Of a stretch of 5,098 bases of DNA, positions 1 through 5,098 are shown piece by piece. The stretch is from Actinomycetes bacterium. Lineage in GTDB: Bacteria > Actinomycetota > Acidimicrobiia > Acidimicrobiales > RAAP-2. Position 1 is the first letter of the stretch; each line of letters opens with the position of its first letter. Where the stretch lies: contig JAJXXB010000046.1 of NCBI GenBank assembly GCA_021781315.1, forward strand, positions 1-5,098. The letters run 5' to 3'. A model generated the notes under the pieces. It had not been told where the DNA came from. It ran no database searches and saw nothing but the letters and a program-made list of their open reading frames with translations. The position numbers and the translations under genes were made by a program.

Positions 1-49
1 CGCCGTAGGTGCCGAGCAACTCGGGATAGAGCAGAGCGATCGTCAGCAC
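1..49 (-). CDS. gatD: GatD, glutamine amidotransferase subunit of lipid II isoglutaminyl synthase (N-terminal fragment, cut by window edge)
   Basis: Only the first 16 codons are inside the window. Read from a GTG at 49-47 they give MLTIALLYPELLGTYG. This matches the conserved GatD N-terminus (a hydrophobic strand, then LYP-x-LL-x-x-YG-D-x-GN). GatD is a class I glutaminase-like subunit that releases ammonia from glutamine and passes it to MurT, which amidates the alpha-carboxyl of D-Glu at position 2 of the lipid II stem peptide on the cytoplasmic side of the membrane. The start overlaps the murT stop codon (TGA at 45-43) by 7 nt, and a strong ribosome site lies 8 nt upstream, so the two subunits are probably translationally coupled. 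The catalytic Cys and His lie outside the window. The identification rests on this short N-terminus plus the adjacent murT, which is its usual partner. Confidence 0.85.
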   Translation of the reverse strand, partial: MLTIALLYPELLGTYG

Positions 50-1251
50 GGCGTCGACTCCTCCAGGGCGTCGGCGAAGGCGGTGTAGTTGGCGAGCAGG
101 TAGAGAGTGTCGTCGATCGGCTCGACTACGCCGTCGTCGAGACGCCACTCGACGCCGGCGTAGTCGAGACGGGTCGCCAGATCGAGCTGGCGATCTCCAA
201 AGCAGCGCACGCGGTGCCCGCGCAGTCGCTCGAAGGGCACGTCGTAGAGCCACGACGGGTCGCGCCCGTCGGCGACGCGCGCGTTGATCGCGACCCAGAC
301 CTCGGCCGGCGAGGAAGGAATCTCCTCGAGCAGCGCCGAGAAGCCGGCCGGGTTCTTCGCGAGCAGCAGGCGCACGTTCTGGCCGCGGTAGGTCCGTCGC
401 GAGAAGCGGCCAGCAACGGAGGTCACTTCGCGCATTCTCGCGGCGGCCTCGGGAGGCGCAACGCCGACCTCGAGGAGCGCGGTCAGGGCCATCGCGGCGT
501 TGGCCCGGTTGAAGTCGCCCAGCAACGACAACGTGAGATCGACCGACGCGCCGTCGATGACGAGCTCGTCACCGGTAAGGCGCGTGGCGATCGTCGTCGG
601 TCGAGAGAATCCGCAGAGGCAGTGCCAAGTGGAGTGCTCGGGCGCGAGAGGACGGGTGCAGTGCGGACAGGACTGCGCGTCGCCCAGCCAGCCCGTGGGA
701 ACGTCGCACCAGCGCACCCGCGAGGCCGTTTCGGCCGCGAAGACGACGAGGGGGTCGTTCACGTTGGCCACGACGAGCGTGGCCGTGCGTGAGAGCGCAC
801 TGCGCCACTTGCCGGCCAGCACGCGCACCTCGCTCGCACGATCAAGTTGGTCGCGCGAGAGGTTAAGAAGCACCACCACGCGCGGCGTGCAGCGGCGGAT
901 GACCTCGGGGAGCCAGGCCTCGTCCACCTCGAGAACGACGCGCGTGGCGCGTGTCGTGGCGAGCGCCGCGACGTGTCCGGCCGGCATGTTGGCGCCGGTG
1001 GCGTTAGTGGCCACCCTTTCGCCCCAGCCGGCGGCGATCAAGGCGGTCGTGGTCGTCTTACCGTTCGTGCCCGAGACGCAGACGATCTGGCGGCTCGCGG
1101 ACAGTTGTTCAAGCAGATCAGGGCAGATACGCAGTCCCACCCGTCCGCCGGCGACGGTGCCGGCGCCGCGGCCGGTCACGCGCGAGAGCCAGTTGACCCC
1201 GCGCAGCGCCACCACGGCGACCCGAGCACGAGCCGAAAGCCGAAAGGTCAC
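43..1251 (-). CDS. murT: MurT, Mur-ligase-like subunit of lipid II isoglutaminyl synthase
   Basis: The 402-residue protein has a normal length for MurT. It uses ATP to activate the D-Glu carboxyl of lipid II, which is then amidated with ammonia from GatD. Visible features are a short N-terminal segment, then the P-loop GTNGKTTTT (61-69), TNATGANMPAG (82-92), the Mur-ligase-like NLSRDQLDR (130-138), a Cys-rich insertion (C195, C198, C211, C213) typical of the MurT zinc ribbon, GDFNRANAAMA (245-255), and the C-terminal DUF1727 region with AKNPAGFSALLE (298-309) and ADGRDPSWLYD (326-336). Family knowledge says an Asp in the last region completes the GatD catalytic triad; D331 or D336 is the candidate. 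The second zinc knuckle is C-x-C rather than the usual C-x-x-C. The start is a GTG at 1251-1249; an in-frame stop four codons upstream (1263-1261) limits alternatives, and the N-terminus aligns with the family. No clear ribosome site precedes it, and a -10-like box lies 6 nt upstream, which suggests a leaderless mRNA. gatD follows with a 7-nt overlap. Confidence 0.93.
   Translation of the reverse strand: MTFRLSARARVAVVALRGVNWLSRVTGRGAGTVAGGRVGLRICPDLLEQLSASRQIVCVSGTNGKTTTTALIAAGWGERVATNATGANMPAGHVAALATTRATRVVLEVDEAWLPEVIRRCTPRVVVLLNLSRDQLDRASEVRVLAGKWRSALSRTATLVVANVNDPLVVFAAETASRVRWCDVPTGWLGDAQSCPHCTRPLAPEHSTWHCLCGFSRPTTIATRLTGDELVIDGASVDLTLSLLGDFNRANAAMALTALLEVGVAPPEAAARMREVTSVAGRFSRRTYRGQNVRLLLAKNPAGFSALLEEIPSSPAEVWVAINARVADGRDPSWLYDVPFERLRGHRVRCFGDRQLDLATRLDYAGVEWRLDDGVVEPIDDTLYLLANYTAFADALEESTPC
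58..64 (-). promoter_or_regulatory. Shine-Dalgarno site of gatD inside the murT 3' end
   Basis: The minus strand reads GGAGGAG, then 8 nt, then the GTG start of gatD. This near-ideal ribosome site lies inside the last codons of murT and decides the gatD start. It contrasts with murT, lysR and the M20 peptidase gene, whose starts lack a clear Shine-Dalgarno sequence. Confidence 0.75.
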
Positions 1252-1257
1252 CCACTC

Positions 1258-1263
1258 ACGCTA
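1258..1263 (-). promoter_or_regulatory. Putative -10 box for a leaderless murT transcript
   Basis: The minus strand reads TAGCGT, then 6 nt, then the murT GTG. This fits the TANNNT form of actinobacterial -10 elements, with transcription starting at the G of the start codon. No good -35 is visible: the expected zone is the U-rich tail of the upstream small RNA terminator. The box lies downstream of that terminator, so it could give murT-gatD its own transcription. The call rests on the motif and its spacing only. Confidence 0.45.
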
Positions 1264-1273
1264 ATCAACCCGG

Positions 1274-1315
1274 AAAACACAAAAGGACCAACCAGGGGGG
1301 ATGGTTGGTCCTTTT
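1274..1315 (-). terminator. Intrinsic terminator at the 3' end of the 6C RNA
   Basis: A perfect 13-bp inverted repeat (1315-1303 with 1293-1281; a C-G pair at 1316/1280 extends it) closes a 9-nt loop. On the minus strand the stem runs into TTTTGTGTTTT, a U-rich tract ending near 1274. In the plus direction only four T residues follow the stem, and no plus-strand gene ends here, so the minus direction is the functional one. It separates the small RNA from murT, which begins 22 nt after the tract. Confidence 0.8.
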
Positions 1316-1361
1316 GCAAAACCTTGGCTTCCCCGAAGGGGGGGTTTCGGTGAAGCAGGCT
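1274..1361 (-). ncRNA. 6C: 6C small RNA (two hairpins with C-rich loops)
   Basis: Read on the minus strand, two consecutive hairpins carry long cytosine runs in their loops. Hairpin 1 (1359 to 1322) has stem GCUUC/GAAGC and CCGAA/UUCGG, separated by an A-G mismatch, extended by CCU/AGG across a two-base bulge, and a loop ACCCCCCC. Hairpin 2 (1315 to 1281) is a perfect 13-bp stem, AAAAGGACCAACC with GGTTGGTCCTTTT, and a loop ATCCCCCCT; it is followed by a U-rich tail. Two stem-loops each with six or more loop cytosines define the actinobacterial 6C RNA class, a trans-acting small RNA. In mycobacteria it is reported to act on mRNAs through these loops, and in Corynebacterium it is linked to the SOS response. 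A promoter with 17-nt spacing predicts a start at A1361, giving an RNA of about 88 nt. Both ends are inferred. It sits between lysR and murT and is transcribed towards murT, so an alternative view is that it is a structured murT leader; both roles are possible if some transcripts read through. Confidence 0.85.
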
Positions 1362-1367
1362 GAAACC

Positions 1368-1396
1368 AGTATGACGAATTTCGGCGTATCAATCAA
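1368..1396 (-). promoter_or_regulatory. Sigma70-like promoter of the 6C RNA
   Basis: The minus strand shows a -35 element TTGATT (1396-1391), exactly 17 nt of spacer, and a -10 element CATACT (1373-1368). Each hexamer matches consensus at four of six positions. Transcription would start about 7 nt downstream, at A1361, just before hairpin 1. The match of promoter spacing to the hairpin start supports an independent small RNA gene. A LysR-type operator-like dyad overlaps the -35. Confidence 0.65.
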
Positions 1397-1403
1397 GTCG
1401 ATA
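1387..1403. promoter_or_regulatory. Candidate LysR-type regulator binding box (T-N11-A)
   Basis: The sequence TATC-AATCAAGTC-GATA is a perfect 4-bp dyad with a 9-nt spacer. It contains ATC-N9-GAT and so the T-N11-A core known for LysR-family operators. It lies in the divergent region between a lysR gene and its upstream neighbour, the classical place for such a site. It overlaps the 6C RNA -35 and is centred about 41 nt before the predicted lysR transcription start. A second TCGATA copy (1407-1412) repeats the right half (1398-1403) at a 9-nt step, and GTATC/GATAC (1386-1390, 1409-1413) form a wider dyad. Binding is inferred from sequence only. Confidence 0.5.
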
Positions 1404-1423
1404 AACTCGATACCTCTCATCTC

Positions 1424-1429
1424 TATACT
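1424..1429 (+). promoter_or_regulatory. -10 box for a leaderless lysR transcript
   Basis: TATACT matches the -10 consensus at five of six positions and is followed by exactly 6 nt and the GTG start codon, so transcription would begin at or next to the G of the start codon. No Shine-Dalgarno sequence is present upstream of the GTG, which agrees with a leaderless mRNA. The -35 zone (about 1400-1406, ATAAAC) is weak and overlaps the candidate LysR operator. Confidence 0.65.
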
Positions 1430-1435
1430 AGATAC

Positions 1436-2365
1436 GTGGACCTCCGCCAACTCGAAGCCCTCATCGCGATCGACGAGCACGGATCGTTCTCGCGCGCGGC
1501 CGACGCCCTGGGAACCGTGCAGTCGAACATCTCGAGCCGGATCGCCCGCTTAGAGGGCGAACTCGGCACCGAACTCGTGAATCGCTCCAGTGGTGTGCTG
1601 AGCGAGTCGGGCACCGTCGTCGTGCACCGCGCCCGGCGAGTGCTCGGCGAGATGAGCGCCATCGTCGCCGACGTGGCCGAGCTGACGGCCGACGTGCGCG
1701 GTCCCGTCAGTCTCGGGGTGATCGGCACGGCGGGACGCTGGATCGTTCCCCTGCTACTCGAGGCCCAGCGCGTGGCCTATCCGCACATCGGGCTGCGCAT
1801 CGTGGAGGGATCGAACTCGACCCTCGAGCCCCAGGTCGTCAACGGCCAGCTCGATATGGCCGTTCTGGCCTGGCCGGTCGAGGCGCCCGAGCTCTCCAAG
1901 GCCGACCTCTTCAGCGAGGACCTCGTCTTGATCGTCGCCCGCGACCACCCCCTGGCCCGCGTCGGATCATCGGTCACCTTCGCCGCTCTCGCCGACTACG
2001 AACTCCTGTTGCCATTGCAGGGTACGGCGCTACGCCACGAGCTCGAGGTGGCGAGCCGCATCCAGGGCGTCCAGTTGCGCCCCCTCATCGAACTCGACGG
2101 GCTGCGCACCATCGCCTCGCTGACCTTTGACGGCCACGGGCCCTCGATCCTGCCCGCGACCGCCCTGTCGGCCCACCTGGCCGACAAGTTCGTCGCCGTG
2201 CACGTCGAGGGCCTCGCCAAGCGGCGTGTCAGCCTCGTGTCGCGGCGCTTCGGCTTCCCCTCGGCCCCGGTGCGTGCGATCAACGCCCTGCTGCGCGAGA
2301 CGATCGCCGACGCTCGCGTCGTGCCCGAGGGGATCTACATCCCCACCCGCTCGACGCCCTTGTAG
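1436..2365 (+). CDS. LysR-family transcriptional regulator
   Basis: The 309-residue length is typical of the family. The N-terminal winged helix-turn-helix spans about residues 2-60: LRQLEALIAIDEHGSFSRAA leads into ALGTVQSNISSRIARLEGEL, followed by the wing LGTELVNR. A linker helix covers about 61-86. The C-terminal half (about 90-295) has the periplasmic-binding-protein-like effector domain, opening with GPVSLGVIGTAG and including LDMAVLAWPV (139-148), the LVLIVARDHPLA strand (163-174) and LTFDGHGPSILPA (229-241). The effector ligand cannot be read from the sequence. The GTG start is chosen because the HTH begins at once, as is normal in LysR proteins, and a -10 box sits 6 nt upstream. The gene is divergent from the 6C RNA and murT, and a LysR-type dyad lies between them, which suggests autoregulation and control of the small RNA. 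The glycosylase gene follows after 18 nt, so the regulator may head a three-gene operon. Confidence 0.95.
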   Translation: MDLRQLEALIAIDEHGSFSRAADALGTVQSNISSRIARLEGELGTELVNRSSGVLSESGTVVVHRARRVLGEMSAIVADVAELTADVRGPVSLGVIGTAGRWIVPLLLEAQRVAYPHIGLRIVEGSNSTLEPQVVNGQLDMAVLAWPVEAPELSKADLFSEDLVLIVARDHPLARVGSSVTFAALADYELLLPLQGTALRHELEVASRIQGVQLRPLIELDGLRTIASLTFDGHGPSILPATALSAHLADKFVAVHVEGLAKRRVSLVSRRFGFPSAPVRAINALLRETIADARVVPEGIYIPTRSTPL

Positions 2366-2383: not shown

Positions 2384-3007
2384 ATGGCACTGCGCCGCCA
2401 CGAGATCGCCGACTACATCGTGGCGCGCGACGCCGCCTTCGCGCCCGTCGTGGCGGCAATCGGCCCGCCCCCGGCGCGACCGCGCGTTCTCGTCGACGAT
2501 CGGTTCTCGCACCTCGTGCGTTCGATCACCCACCAGCTGTTGGCCATCAAGGCCGCGATGACGATCCACGGCCGGGTCATCGAACTGGTCGGCGGTGAGG
2601 TCACGACCGCCAACGTGCTCTCGCTCTCGGTCGCGGACCTGCGCGCGGCGGGACTCTCGCGCACGAAGGCCGAGGCGATGATCGAACTTGCCGACTTCGT
2701 CGACGGCGGACGCGTACGGATCGCCCGTCACGGCTACATGGACGACGCCGACGTGGTCGCTGACGTGACCCAGGTGCGCGGCATCGGGCCCTGGACCGCG
2801 CACATGTACCTCATGTTCACCCTGGCCCGTCGCGACGTCTGGCCGACCGGCGACTTCGGCGTGCGCCACGGTTGGTCGGTCATCCACGGCCTCGACGAGA
2901 ACGTCAGCGAGGCCGAGCTCGCCCGTCTCGGCGAGCCCTTCGTGGGGGTGCGCTCGGCGGTGGCGGACTACTGTTGGGCCGCCGTTGACGAGGTGAGTTG
3001 GCAGTAG
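2384..3007 (+). CDS. HhH-GPD family DNA glycosylase (DNA-3-methyladenine glycosylase II / AlkA class)
   Basis: The 207-residue protein is a compact helix-hairpin-helix glycosylase that would remove alkylated purines in base excision repair. The sequence shows a SITHQLLAIKAA helix (48-59; compare the usual QQ-(L/I)-S-x-(K/A)-AA), AAGLSRTKAEAMIELA (88-103), the hairpin VRGIGPWTAHMYLMF (131-145), and PTGDFGVRHGW (154-164), in which D157 fits the catalytic Asp. The position that holds the Schiff-base Lys in bifunctional members (such as Nth or Ogg) is W137, so the enzyme should be monofunctional. No Cys cluster for an iron-sulfur centre is present. It is shorter than E. coli AlkA and lacks its N-terminal domain, as is common for this subgroup. 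The ATG is preceded by AGGA (2374-2377) at 6-nt spacing. It lies 18 nt after lysR and 9 nt before the peptidase gene. Exact substrate preference is not determinable. Confidence 0.9.
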   Translation: MALRRHEIADYIVARDAAFAPVVAAIGPPPARPRVLVDDRFSHLVRSITHQLLAIKAAMTIHGRVIELVGGEVTTANVLSLSVADLRAAGLSRTKAEAMIELADFVDGGRVRIARHGYMDDADVVADVTQVRGIGPWTAHMYLMFTLARRDVWPTGDFGVRHGWSVIHGLDENVSEAELARLGEPFVGVRSAVADYCWAAVDEVSWQ

Positions 3008-3010
3008 CCT
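3005..3010 (+). promoter_or_regulatory. Possible internal -10 box for a leaderless M20 peptidase transcript
   Basis: TAGCCT overlaps the stop codon of the glycosylase gene and is followed by 6 nt and the ATG of the peptidase gene, the same geometry as seen before lysR and murT. TTGACG (2985-2990) resembles a -35 but is only 14 nt away, shorter than the usual 16-18. With no visible Shine-Dalgarno site in the 9-nt gap, an internal promoter is plausible but not proven. Confidence 0.35.
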
Positions 3011-3016
3011 CGAGCC

Positions 3017-4420
3017 ATGCTCACCCTCGCTGACTTCGAACGTGACGCCCTGGCGACCCTGCTCGCCTACGGCGAGATCCCCTGCCTGTCGCCGATGTAC
3101 GACACCGCCTGGCGCGAGAACGGCCACGTCGAGGCGGCCGTGGAGCTCCTGGCCGACTGGGCGCGCCAGCGACGGCTCGCGAACTTCGAGGTCGCGGTGC
3201 ACCGACTCGACGGCCGCACTCCGCTTCTCGCCGTGACCGTCGAGGCGACGGGGGCCGGCGCCGGCACCGCGGTCCTCTACGGACACCTCGACAAGCAGCC
3301 GCCCCTGGGCGACTGGTCCGAGGGGCTGGCCCCCTTTTCGCCCACGCGGGTGGGCGACCGGCTCTACGCGCGCGGCCTGGCCGATGACGGCTACTCCACC
3401 TTCTCGGCGCTGCTCGCCCTCGAGACCCTCGAGGCCGCCGGCACACCGCACAGTCGCGTCGTGGTGTTGATCGAGGCCAGCGAGGAGAGCGGCAGCCCCG
3501 ACCTCGACGCCTACCTCGAAGAGCTGCGCGAGCACTTGGGCGACGTGCGCTTCATGGTCTGTCTCGACTCGGGGGCGCTCACCTACGACCGCCTCTGGGT
3601 GACGACGTCGCTGCGCGGCATCGTCAACGTCGCGGTCACCGTCGGAGTGCTCTCGCGCGGCCAGCACAGCGGCGCCGTGAGCGGCGTCGCGCCGTCGTCC
3701 TTTCGCCTGCTGCGCCAACTGCTCGATCGCGTCGAGGACTCGCGCACCGGCGACATTCTGGTCGATGAGCTCCTGGCCGAGATCCCCGACGCCCACGTCG
3801 AGGCGGCCCGTGCGACGGCCGAGGAGTTCGGAGACGTGACGGTGGCCGACCTGCCGCTGCTCGACGGCGTCGCACCGATGGGCGCGAACGCGGCCGAGCG
3901 GATCCTTCGCTCGACGTGGTATCCCACGCTCTCGGTGGTGGGCATGGGCGGGGTGCCCGAGCCCGAGATCGCCGGCAACGTCCTGCGCCCCTTCACCACC
4001 GCGGTGCTGTCGTTCCGCCTGCCCCCGACGACCGACTCCGAGGACGCCGCGCGCGCCATCGTCTCGGCCCTCTCCTTCGACGCGCCCGAGGGCGCCGCGG
4101 TCGAGGTCGAGATGATCCAGGCCGCCGACGGCTGGATGGCCCCACCGCTCGAGCCCTGGCTCGACGACGCCCTCAGCGACGCCAGCCGCCTCGCCTTCGG
4201 CCGCGAGGCGGGATTCACCGGCGAGGGCGGGTCGATTCCCTTCCTCGCCTCACTGGCCCGGCGCTTCCCCGAGGCCGCCTTCGTGGCGACCGGCGTGCTC
4301 GGCCCCGACTCGAACGCCCACGGCATCGACGAGATGCTCGACCTGCCCACCACGGTGGCCGTCACCAACGCGGTGAGCCACCTGCTCGCGTCCTTCGCCG
4401 CGGCCGACGAGGCGCGTTAG
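3017..4420 (+). CDS. M20-family metallopeptidase (carnosinase-like dipeptidase)
   Basis: This 467-residue cytoplasmic protein (no signal peptide visible) belongs to the dinuclear-zinc M20 peptidases. All metal positions can be placed: H90 in YGHLDKQP, with D92 as its usual partner; bridging D123 in ARGLADDG; E156 (general base) and E157 (ligand) in EASEESGS; D184 in CLDSG; and H435 in SNAHGIDE. The lid/dimerisation domain lies at about 200-315 and includes LRGIVNVAVTV and GQHSGAVSG, whose H217 matches the lid His that reaches the partner's active site in carnosinases. R334 in SFRLPP fits the conserved substrate-carboxylate Arg. The LDKQP, DWSEGLAPF and LRG motifs resemble the carnosinase / cytosolic non-specific dipeptidase group (M20F) more than DapE or ArgE, so hydrolysis of dipeptides is the best guess. 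The start ATG is 9 nt after the glycosylase stop and has no clear ribosome site. Its stop codon overlaps that of the convergent dehydrogenase gene. Confidence 0.92.
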   Translation: MLTLADFERDALATLLAYGEIPCLSPMYDTAWRENGHVEAAVELLADWARQRRLANFEVAVHRLDGRTPLLAVTVEATGAGAGTAVLYGHLDKQPPLGDWSEGLAPFSPTRVGDRLYARGLADDGYSTFSALLALETLEAAGTPHSRVVVLIEASEESGSPDLDAYLEELREHLGDVRFMVCLDSGALTYDRLWVTTSLRGIVNVAVTVGVLSRGQHSGAVSGVAPSSFRLLRQLLDRVEDSRTGDILVDELLAEIPDAHVEAARATAEEFGDVTVADLPLLDGVAPMGANAAERILRSTWYPTLSVVGMGGVPEPEIAGNVLRPFTTAVLSFRLPPTTDSEDAARAIVSALSFDAPEGAAVEVEMIQAADGWMAPPLEPWLDDALSDASRLAFGREAGFTGEGGSIPFLASLARRFPEAAFVATGVLGPDSNAHGIDEMLDLPTTVAVTNAVSHLLASFAAADEAR

Positions 4421-5098
4421 CTCCTCGGCACGTCCTTCCAGGCCACGTTCTTGTCCGAGCGCGGCTCGCCGGGCAGACCCAGGACCCGCTCGCCGATGAT
4501 GTTGCGCATCACCTCGCTGGTGCCGCCTTCGATCGAGTTCGCGCGCATGCGCAAGAAGGCCTTTCGCATGTCGCCGCTCGCGAGCGCCGTCTCCGTGGGA
4601 CGGATCAGCGGGTAGTTCGAGCCATACAGCATGCCGGCCGCCCCCATCAGGTTCACGCAGAGCTCGCTGGTGCGCTGGTTCTCCTCGGCGAAGGCGAGCT
4701 TGGCGACCGAACCTTCGGGACCCGGCGTGCCGGCCTTGCGCAGGTCGCTCGCGCGCCAGTTGGTGAGTCGGGCCACCTCGTTGCGCACCCAGGCGCTCAC
4801 CAGCTCGGCGCGCACCGCGTGGGCGTAGGCGTCCTCGCGCCCGCTCCAGCGTTCACGCCAGATCTTGACGGCCTCTCCGATCAGCCCGCTGCCGCGCGGG
4901 GGCACGGTGCCGCCGATGGAGACTCGCTCGTTCATCAACGTCGTGATCGAGACGTTCCAGCCCTCGCCCACGCCGCCCAGGCGCCGCGAGTCGGGCACGC
5001 GCACGTCTTGAAAGAAGCACTCGTTGAACTCGGCCTCGCCGGTCACCTGGTAGAGAGGGCGCACGTCGACACCGGGATCGTGCATGCCGACGATGAAG
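4417..5098 (-). CDS. Acyl-CoA dehydrogenase (FadE type), C-terminal part, 5' end beyond the window
   Basis: The frame stays open to the window edge and gives 226 residues, roughly the C-terminal 55-60% of a usual 380-400-residue flavoprotein. The edge codons FIVG run into MHDPGVDVRP, so the internal Met is not a start. Visible are the end of the middle beta domain (VRPLYQVTGEAEFNECFFQDVRVP), then GEGWNVSITTLMNERV and the C-terminal helical domain with NLMGAAGMLYG, and the ending ANSIEGGTSEVMRNIIGERVLGLPGEP. The family oxidises acyl-CoA thioesters to trans-2-enoyl-CoA with FAD, passing electrons to ETF. Counting the 222 residues from that internal Met as 1, E186 lies in IEGGTSE. In medium-chain enzymes the catalytic Glu is in YEGTS, directly before GTS, whereas here a Gly occupies that place and the Glu is one residue earlier. 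The TAA stop (4419-4417) overlaps the TAG of the convergent peptidase gene. The substrate (fatty acid, branched-chain or sterol side chain) cannot be assigned. Confidence 0.93.
   Translation of the reverse strand, partial: FIVGMHDPGVDVRPLYQVTGEAEFNECFFQDVRVPDSRRLGGVGEGWNVSITTLMNERVSIGGTVPPRGSGLIGEAVKIWRERWSGREDAYAHAVRAELVSAWVRNEVARLTNWRASDLRKAGTPGPEGSVAKLAFAEENQRTSELCVNLMGAAGMLYGSNYPLIRPTETALASGDMRKAFLRMRANSIEGGTSEVMRNIIGERVLGLPGEPRSDKNVAWKDVPRS

Follow-up and report, generated by a model that had tools for sequence, protein, structure and literature searches.

Across the class Acidimicrobiia, a small C-loop RNA is tied to a divergent gene for a LysR-type regulator, a linkage that is new here. 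The informative neighbour of the RNA is this divergent lysR gene, not murT, the gene that follows the RNA in the window (the whole stretch of DNA analysed, 5,098 nt from an uncultured Acidimicrobiia bacterium, positions 1 to 5,098 of contig JAJXXB010000046.1 in assembly GCA_021781315.1). The RNA, predicted on the minus strand at 1361-1274, is probably a diverged 6C-type sRNA homologous to 6C (Rfam RF01066). Taken as a whole, the reading preferred here, that of a stand-alone 6C-type sRNA that would be activated by LysR and whose C-loops would block trans-encoded mRNAs, with murT having a promoter of its own, is probable.

Gene Arrangement and Predicted RNA

The initial annotation, made from the sequence of the window, had described two adjacent minus-strand hairpins with C-rich loops between lysR and murT. 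This observation is real. Both reading and folding confirm the paired hairpins, with a C7 loop (1344-1338) and a C6 loop (1300-1295). The features of the region are as follows.

1274..1361, minus strand: putative gene for a 6C-type small RNA, with a transcript predicted at about 88 nt; fold z -6.7; conserved in 23 loci
1321..1360, minus strand: hairpin 1, C7 loop at 1338-1344
1279..1317, minus strand: hairpin 2, C6 loop at 1295-1300 on a stem of 15-16 bp; resembles a terminator, with a U-rich tail at 1278-1274
1368..1373, minus strand: predicted RNA promoter, -10 CATACT, from sequence; similar element in relatives
1391..1396, minus strand: predicted RNA promoter, -35 TTGATT, spacer 17 nt, from sequence; TTG recurrent in relatives
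1419..1433, no strand: candidate LysR site IR1, ATC-N9-GAT; centred near -65 relative to the predicted RNA start
1397..1411, no strand: candidate LysR site IR2, with ATC as left half and an imperfect right half; centre about -43
1388..1402, no strand: candidate LysR site IR3, ATC-N9-GAT; centre about -34, overlapping the RNA -35
1436..2365, plus strand: lysR-type regulator gene, divergent; Pfam LysR_substrate and HTH_1; GTG start
1424-1429, plus strand: lysR -10 TATACT, covered by candidate site IR1
1258..1263, minus strand: promoter-like -10 TAGCGT just before the murT start; TTAGCGT in 24 of 24 sequences
43..1251, minus strand: murT (lipid II isoglutaminyl synthase subunit); Pfam MurT_C and Mur_ligase_M

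Window positions 2384-5098 carry genes for an HhH-GPD DNA glycosylase, an M20 peptidase and the C-terminal part of an acyl-CoA dehydrogenase.

The folding energy of the 88-nt stretch 1361-1274 is -42.9 kcal/mol, whereas shuffled versions average -22.9 (z -6.7, with none of 200 shuffles as stable). Hairpin 1 folded alone gives a weaker signal (z -2.6, 4 of 200 shuffles as stable), and the two arms of hairpin 2 form an almost perfect inverted repeat, with A and T tracts on either side. The promoter with a 17-nt spacer that had been claimed is present as TTGATT (1396-1391) and CATACT (1373-1368), with a predicted start at about 1361, and the predicted transcript of about 88 nt (1361-1274) agrees with the 85-90 nt expected earlier. 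A consensus promoter scan of the window did not list this promoter because it has 8 of 12 consensus matches and the threshold was 9. Among relatives, TTGnnn-16/18-nAnnnT with at least eight matches occurs in 66 of 126 lysR-RNA regions against 8.2 when shuffled. The strong hairpin-2 stem followed by UUUUGUGUUUU makes the proposed intrinsic terminator plausible, but the label is without independent confirmation because a terminator scan of the window found none. We infer that the RNA is transcribed and that its transcription terminates.

Structural Conservation and Covariation

A search with MurT as query gave 43 loci, the closest of which (86-87% identity) come from two MAGs, one of them assigned to Acidimicrobiaceae and the other to an 'Actinomycetes bacterium', indicating an actinobacterial host. 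The double C-loop element lies just upstream of murT in 23 of the 43. All 23 loci with at least 55% MurT identity and upstream sequence keep the C-loops and the stem pairing, in line with the conservation in close relatives that the initial annotation had called for, and none of the 17 loci with at most 50% identity and upstream sequence shows such an RNA upstream of murT; L017, L020 and L034 begin at or inside murT and have no upstream sequence to judge. When both strands of the 43 loci and the window were scanned for two neighbouring C-loop hairpins, with detection thresholds set by hand, matches fell at this site alone, in the window and in 22 of the loci, with a further overlapping call in L016. 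L007, missed by the scan, was recovered by the covariance model R1.

The loops are the constant part of the element. Both keep runs of at least C5 in 24 of 24 sequences (the 23 MurT loci and the window) while the hairpin-1 stems vary widely, and yet the arms of each hairpin match each other. In these 24 sequences, own-arm pairing of hairpin 1 averages -12.2 kcal/mol against -6.6 for swapped arms, and that of hairpin 2 -26.2 against -23.2, with 0 of 10000 permutations as good in either case. The arm test was extended to a further 60 loci independently of the covariance models; the 13 genomes used for the models were left out, and L170 (the RNA of L061), at least, is in the alignment of model R2. 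Own arms again surpass swapped arms for the first C-run (-11.2 against -5.8) and for the last C-run (-20.7 against -9.6), each with 0 of 10000 permutations as good; related loci are counted separately in such tests and are not phylogenetically independent. RNAalifold on the MAFFT alignment A1 predicts hairpin 2 alone, and the loss of hairpin 1 is read as a misalignment of its arms. Therefore, a hand-set structure on a second alignment, A2 (12 sequences), and the arm-swap tests were used. In A2, two-sided changes occur in 12 of 26 pairs (0 of 500 shuffles), and 94.9% of cells are paired, dropping to 31-51% in slid registers. Hairpin 1 contributes 8 of 11 pairs with two-sided changes and 87.9% of cells paired, and hairpin 2 contributes 4 of 15 pairs and 100%. 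Of five covariation measures, four lie above every one of the 500 shuffles, and the exception is the measure of further pair types (192 of 500).

Strong conservation in the 24 sequences, in which hairpin 1 varies freely, also extends to the linker GGUUUUGC (window 1310-1325, minus strand) and to the A-tract on the 5' side of hairpin 2; UUUUGCAAAA is self-complementary.

It is very improbable that the site is no more than an inverted repeat in the DNA, or a terminator for lysR or murT, in which the C-runs are incidental. The near-perfect repeat of hairpin 2 between its A and T tracts is what such an element would look like, but its position in front of both genes, the retention of both C-loops in all 24 sequences while the stems change, and the scarcity of C-loops on the other strand (6 of 130 LysR loci) all argue against it.

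Relationship to 6C RNA

The initial annotation had assigned the RNA to the 6C type and proposed a search with the Rfam model as a check. The expected alignment of both loops was obtained over the full length of the model (1-75), but the score of 24.1 bits misses the gathering score of 47 bits, and the RNA is therefore not a formal member of RF01066. Taken as the sole test, the gathering threshold would have rejected the RNA. Among 4227 Rfam families, 6C is the best-scoring at the site, with an E-value of 0.25 over all 4227 families or, by division, about 6e-5 for a single prior hypothesis. The sub-threshold matches to ftsZ-DE, MIR4227, snoR9 and PhotoRC-I have fewer bits and lie far below their own cut-offs. 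The RNA has two stem-loops in tandem and about six C per loop (C7 and C6), as RF01066 does. This conserved two-C-loop architecture, together with the rank of 6C among the Rfam families, supports the assignment to the 6C type, in a diverged form that scores below the cut-off.

RF01066 has no match over its cut-off in 12 related loci, nor in 20 related genomes, for which part of the first-look candidates was scored. Among 14 control genomes, Corynebacterium glutamicum, whose 6C RNA is known, alone gave a signal, likewise below the cut-off. An intermediate is provided by L058, which scores 40.9 bits with RF01066. The alphaproteobacterial sRNAs ar7 and ar14 also match L058 (1437-1582) below their cut-offs, at 42.2 and 40.0 bits, perhaps because C-rich loops are shared.

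Across the phylum, RF01066 marks 22 places in 21 of 296 genomes, 12 over the cut-off and 10 not, and all 22, including the 10 below it, were used in the comparisons. Model R2 was built from the window and 37 relatives, 38 sequences in all. Its matches coincide with the RNA at 19 of these 22 places, among them 11 of the 12 above the cut-off; L069, L078 and L080 are missed, and no further match with E up to 1 turns up in 67 kb. Both models score C-runs, so the loops that they have in common account for some of this agreement. Of the 22 places, 17 (including 11 of the 12 that pass the cut-off) have a HAD gene in the fetched flank, in each case divergent from the RNA. None of the 22 has this LysR within the 1.5-kb flank, indicating that LysR control is not a general trait of 6C.

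Linkage to a Divergent LysR-Type Regulator

Model R1, trained on the window and relatives, was used to search 296 genomes of the class Acidimicrobiia. It matches the window at 1272-1361 with 105.8 bits, the window itself being in the training set, and finds the RNA in 20 of the 296 genomes, three of which (G001, G005 and G006) also supplied training sequences. L060, one of 21 R1 places, lacks C-loops and was dropped. At 16 of the 20 places a divergent relative of the window LysR lies within the 1.5-kb flank; at L055, L062, L063 and L064 the RNA has no LysR relative in that flank. L062 and L064 are two C-loop RNAs about 2.3 kb apart on one contig of G018, with a gene between them that is murA-like by eye. 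The C-loop RNA of L063 (5-82) lies at a contig end, and its upstream neighbour is by eye IMPDH-like, not LysR.

The linkage is also seen from the side of the regulator. Relatives of the window LysR at 1e-40 occur in 140 of the 296 genomes, and 130 were examined; G035, G056, G060, G072, G135, G161, G165, G234, G196 and G297 were left out, the RNAs of the last two being L058 and L059. With a hairpin defined by a loop of C5 or longer, on the divergent strand and at most 350 nt from LysR, at least one C-loop hairpin accompanies 106 of the 130 relatives, at least two accompany 48 and at least three accompany 15, against 6, 0 and 0 on the other strand. By this definition, 24 of the 130 have none and 82 have fewer than two. 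Grouped by LysR score, the loci with at least one hairpin are 7/7 at 400 bits or more, 24/26 at 240-400, 43/55 at 190-240 and 32/42 below 190; for at least two hairpins the corresponding figures are 5/7, 15/26, 27/55 and 1/42. When C-runs alone are counted, two or more are present in 28 of the 30 best LysR loci. For comparison, 30 loci of LysR-type genes were taken from 12 hand-chosen genomes among the same ones. Seven of them proved to hold the LysR under study, 6 of these with C-loops; the 23 others served as control, and among them at least one hairpin occurs in 1 and at least two in 0.

The RNA thus stays with the LysR subfamily class-wide, and the linkage persists down to about 40% LysR identity while the downstream genes turn over. 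The group below 190 bits adjoins a divergent whiB in 42 of 42 loci, against 0 of 88 in the other groups, within the stretches fetched (for most LysR loci about 500 nt upstream, more distant genes being outside view). In 32 of these 42 a C-loop hairpin, mostly a single one, lies in between. Three neighbouring C-loop hairpins are found in 14 loci (L111, L114, L117, L120, L128, L135, L136, L137, L142, L145, L160, L162, L167 and L168). L129 and L133 keep LysR and, by eye, the start of the operator-like pattern described below, but they lack the C-loop RNA and have a HAD-like frame immediately afterwards.

Operator-Like Pattern and the LysR Protein

The regions between lysR and the RNA share a conserved promoter pattern, ATC-N9-GAT-N7-ATC-N18-GAT. 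Of 149 regions taken (the window, 23 MurT loci and 125 LysR loci after removal of 5 duplicate genomes), 23 were set aside for want of an early C-run, and counts refer to the remaining 126 stretches from lysR to the first C-run, the whiB subgroup included. GAT-N7-ATC is present in 120 of 126 regions against 2.9 in shuffles, which preserve single-base composition only; ATC-N18-GAT, which holds parts of IR2 and IR3, in 99 against 2.3; and ATC-N9-GAT, of the LysR-box kind T-N11-A, in 85 against 2.8. By LysR group, the pattern of IR1 gives 29/33, 49/55 and 42/42 against 1.2-1.4 shuffled, and GAT-N7-ATC-N18-GAT gives 25/33, 27/55 and, for the whiB group, 39/42 against at most 0.05; the latter pattern also stands before 1 of 23 other LysR-type genes.

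A trans-acting C-loop sRNA with a promoter outside LysR control, next to a self-regulating LysR whose neighbourhood is a product of slow rearrangement, is quite unlikely. It would fit the four RNAs without LysR (L055, L062, L063 and L064) and the RF01066 places, none of which has one. Against it, the pattern reaches the RNA -35 at a fixed spacing (99 of 126), which would be superfluous for self-control alone, and the linkage is maintained to low LysR identity despite the turnover of downstream genes. Binding of LysR at the RNA promoter with an activating sign, as the preferred reading has it, would be consistent with this arrangement. On the other side of the region, lysR may be leaderless because its GTG start lies about 7 nt after its -10, and the position of IR1 over that -10 (1424-1429) fits self-repression by LysR.

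The window LysR has no cysteine in its 309 residues and hence no thiol switch, which rules out redox sensing of the kind found in OxyR proper. Its best NCBIfam matches are CynR and then OxyR, both far below cut-off.

Genes Downstream of the RNA

The initial annotation had raised the question of read-through into murT. The promoter-like element TTAGCGT lies between the RNA and the murT start in 24 of 24 sequences, so that read-through is not needed; a leader role or read-through for murT is judged unlikely in view of this element, and murT is probably independent of the RNA transcript, as the sequence comparison suggests. The LysR linkage persists when the downstream gene is a different one. 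In L056-L059 the RNA is followed by a co-directional HAD gene, for which Pfam gives HAD together with Acyltransferase in L056 and L058. The order in L057 is lysR / RNA / HAD / murT, which may be the older arrangement from which murT came to adjoin the RNA.

HAD, murT and whiB all share the direction of the RNA, and Rfam labels 6C as 'Cis-reg'. Both facts would suit a cis-acting leader of murT, HAD or whiB, in which attenuation takes place, LysR controls the operon concerned and there is no free sRNA. The whiB group would suit it too: all 42 of these weaker LysR relatives adjoin whiB, 32 with an intervening C-loop hairpin, and no separate whiB promoter is obvious by eye. The TTAGCGT element in all 24 sequences and the terminator-like hairpin 2 speak against it, as do downstream genes that change or, by eye, are convergent (L055 and L062). 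Moreover, the available text of PMC4046766 describes 6C of Corynebacterium glutamicum as an sRNA that northern blots show at about 100 nt. A cis-acting leader is thus an unlikely explanation.

Proposed Mechanism

According to the preferred reading, the minus strand at 1361-1274 would carry a free-standing gene for a 6C-type small RNA. The divergent LysR would bind the intergenic region, repress its own, possibly leaderless, gene and, on sensing a ligand, activate the RNA promoter much as OxyR switches on OxyS. The RNA would fold into two hairpins displaying C6-C7 loops, which would pair with G-rich stretches near the ribosome binding sites of trans-encoded mRNAs and so block translation. Hairpin 2 would end the transcript, and murT would start from its own promoter just downstream.

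The pairing step is proposed by analogy with the mycobacterial B11/6C RNA. In Mycobacterium abscessus, as far as the available text of PMC10470900 goes, the loops of B11 repress eccB4 via its G-tract, either loop suffices, and compensatory mutations restore repression. In 13 genomes, G6-N4-10-ATG occurs 553 times and C6-N4-10-ATG 473 times, against 312 (G6) and 333 (C6) in backward-read controls of the same genomes; runs longer than six were counted more than once in these sums, and the test is crude and too weak to count.

A broader and more tentative idea, possible but somewhat doubtful, is that the Acidimicrobiia LysR subfamily with its portable C-loop RNA unit is a ligand-gated global translational regulator. 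One hairpin before whiB, two (the 6C type) before murT or HAD, and the three-hairpin versions would then represent loop numbers that tune capacity, with the LysR signal setting the dose.

Comparison with Known Systems

LysR-type regulators divergent from their sRNA (OxyR-OxyS and GcvA-GcvB) are already known, as is 6C itself. A literature search, with subscription journals mostly outside its range, gave no paper joining 6C RNA with LysR or with Acidimicrobiia, and the combination of LysR with a 6C-type RNA and the three-loop forms appear to be new on the literature searched. With the present comparison, 6C-type RNA is also described from genomes in which the Rfam model has no hit at its cut-off, and forms with three loops are added. 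The signal controlling 6C is poorly known. The available text of PMC4046766 and PMC6789036 mentions a link to GlxR, a doubling in Corynebacterium upon DNA damage, and unchanged levels under the stresses of another study. Control of the present RNA by PafBC/SOS was considered, and the available part of PMC6789036 offers no reason for preferring it. A cognate, linked regulator would provide a handle, since the ligand of LysR would point to the condition in which a C-loop RNA is needed.

In layout the region resembles OxyR-OxyS of E. coli, where a LysR-type regulator is likewise divergent from a small RNA and three 15-bp repeats lie at similar positions. In the window (1388-1433), the three repeats have their centres at 1426, 1404 and 1395, which is -65, -43 and -34 from the predicted (not measured) start, against -66, -44 and -35 for the OxyR repeats at oxyS in a footprinting-by-comparison analysis (PMC5002191, from the available text). 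Unlike OxyR, the window LysR is without cysteine. OxyS and the window RNA are presumably unrelated. GcvA-GcvB of E. coli and Yersinia is similar in that a LysR-type activator is divergent from the sRNA that it controls, according to the available text of PMC1557403. Both the regulator and the RNA are different there. GcvB is not known to have C-loops of this kind.

Compared with 6C of RF01066, the window RNA has another linker and other stems, its relatives include three-hairpin forms, and the divergent gene is lysR here and HAD there, with murT downstream here. The two are alike in their tandem hairpins with C-run loops, their length of 75-100 nt and their occurrence in Actinomycetota. The models of each recognise the other, and a HAD gene recurs in the flank of both, in 17 of the 22 RF01066 places and in L056-L059 here.
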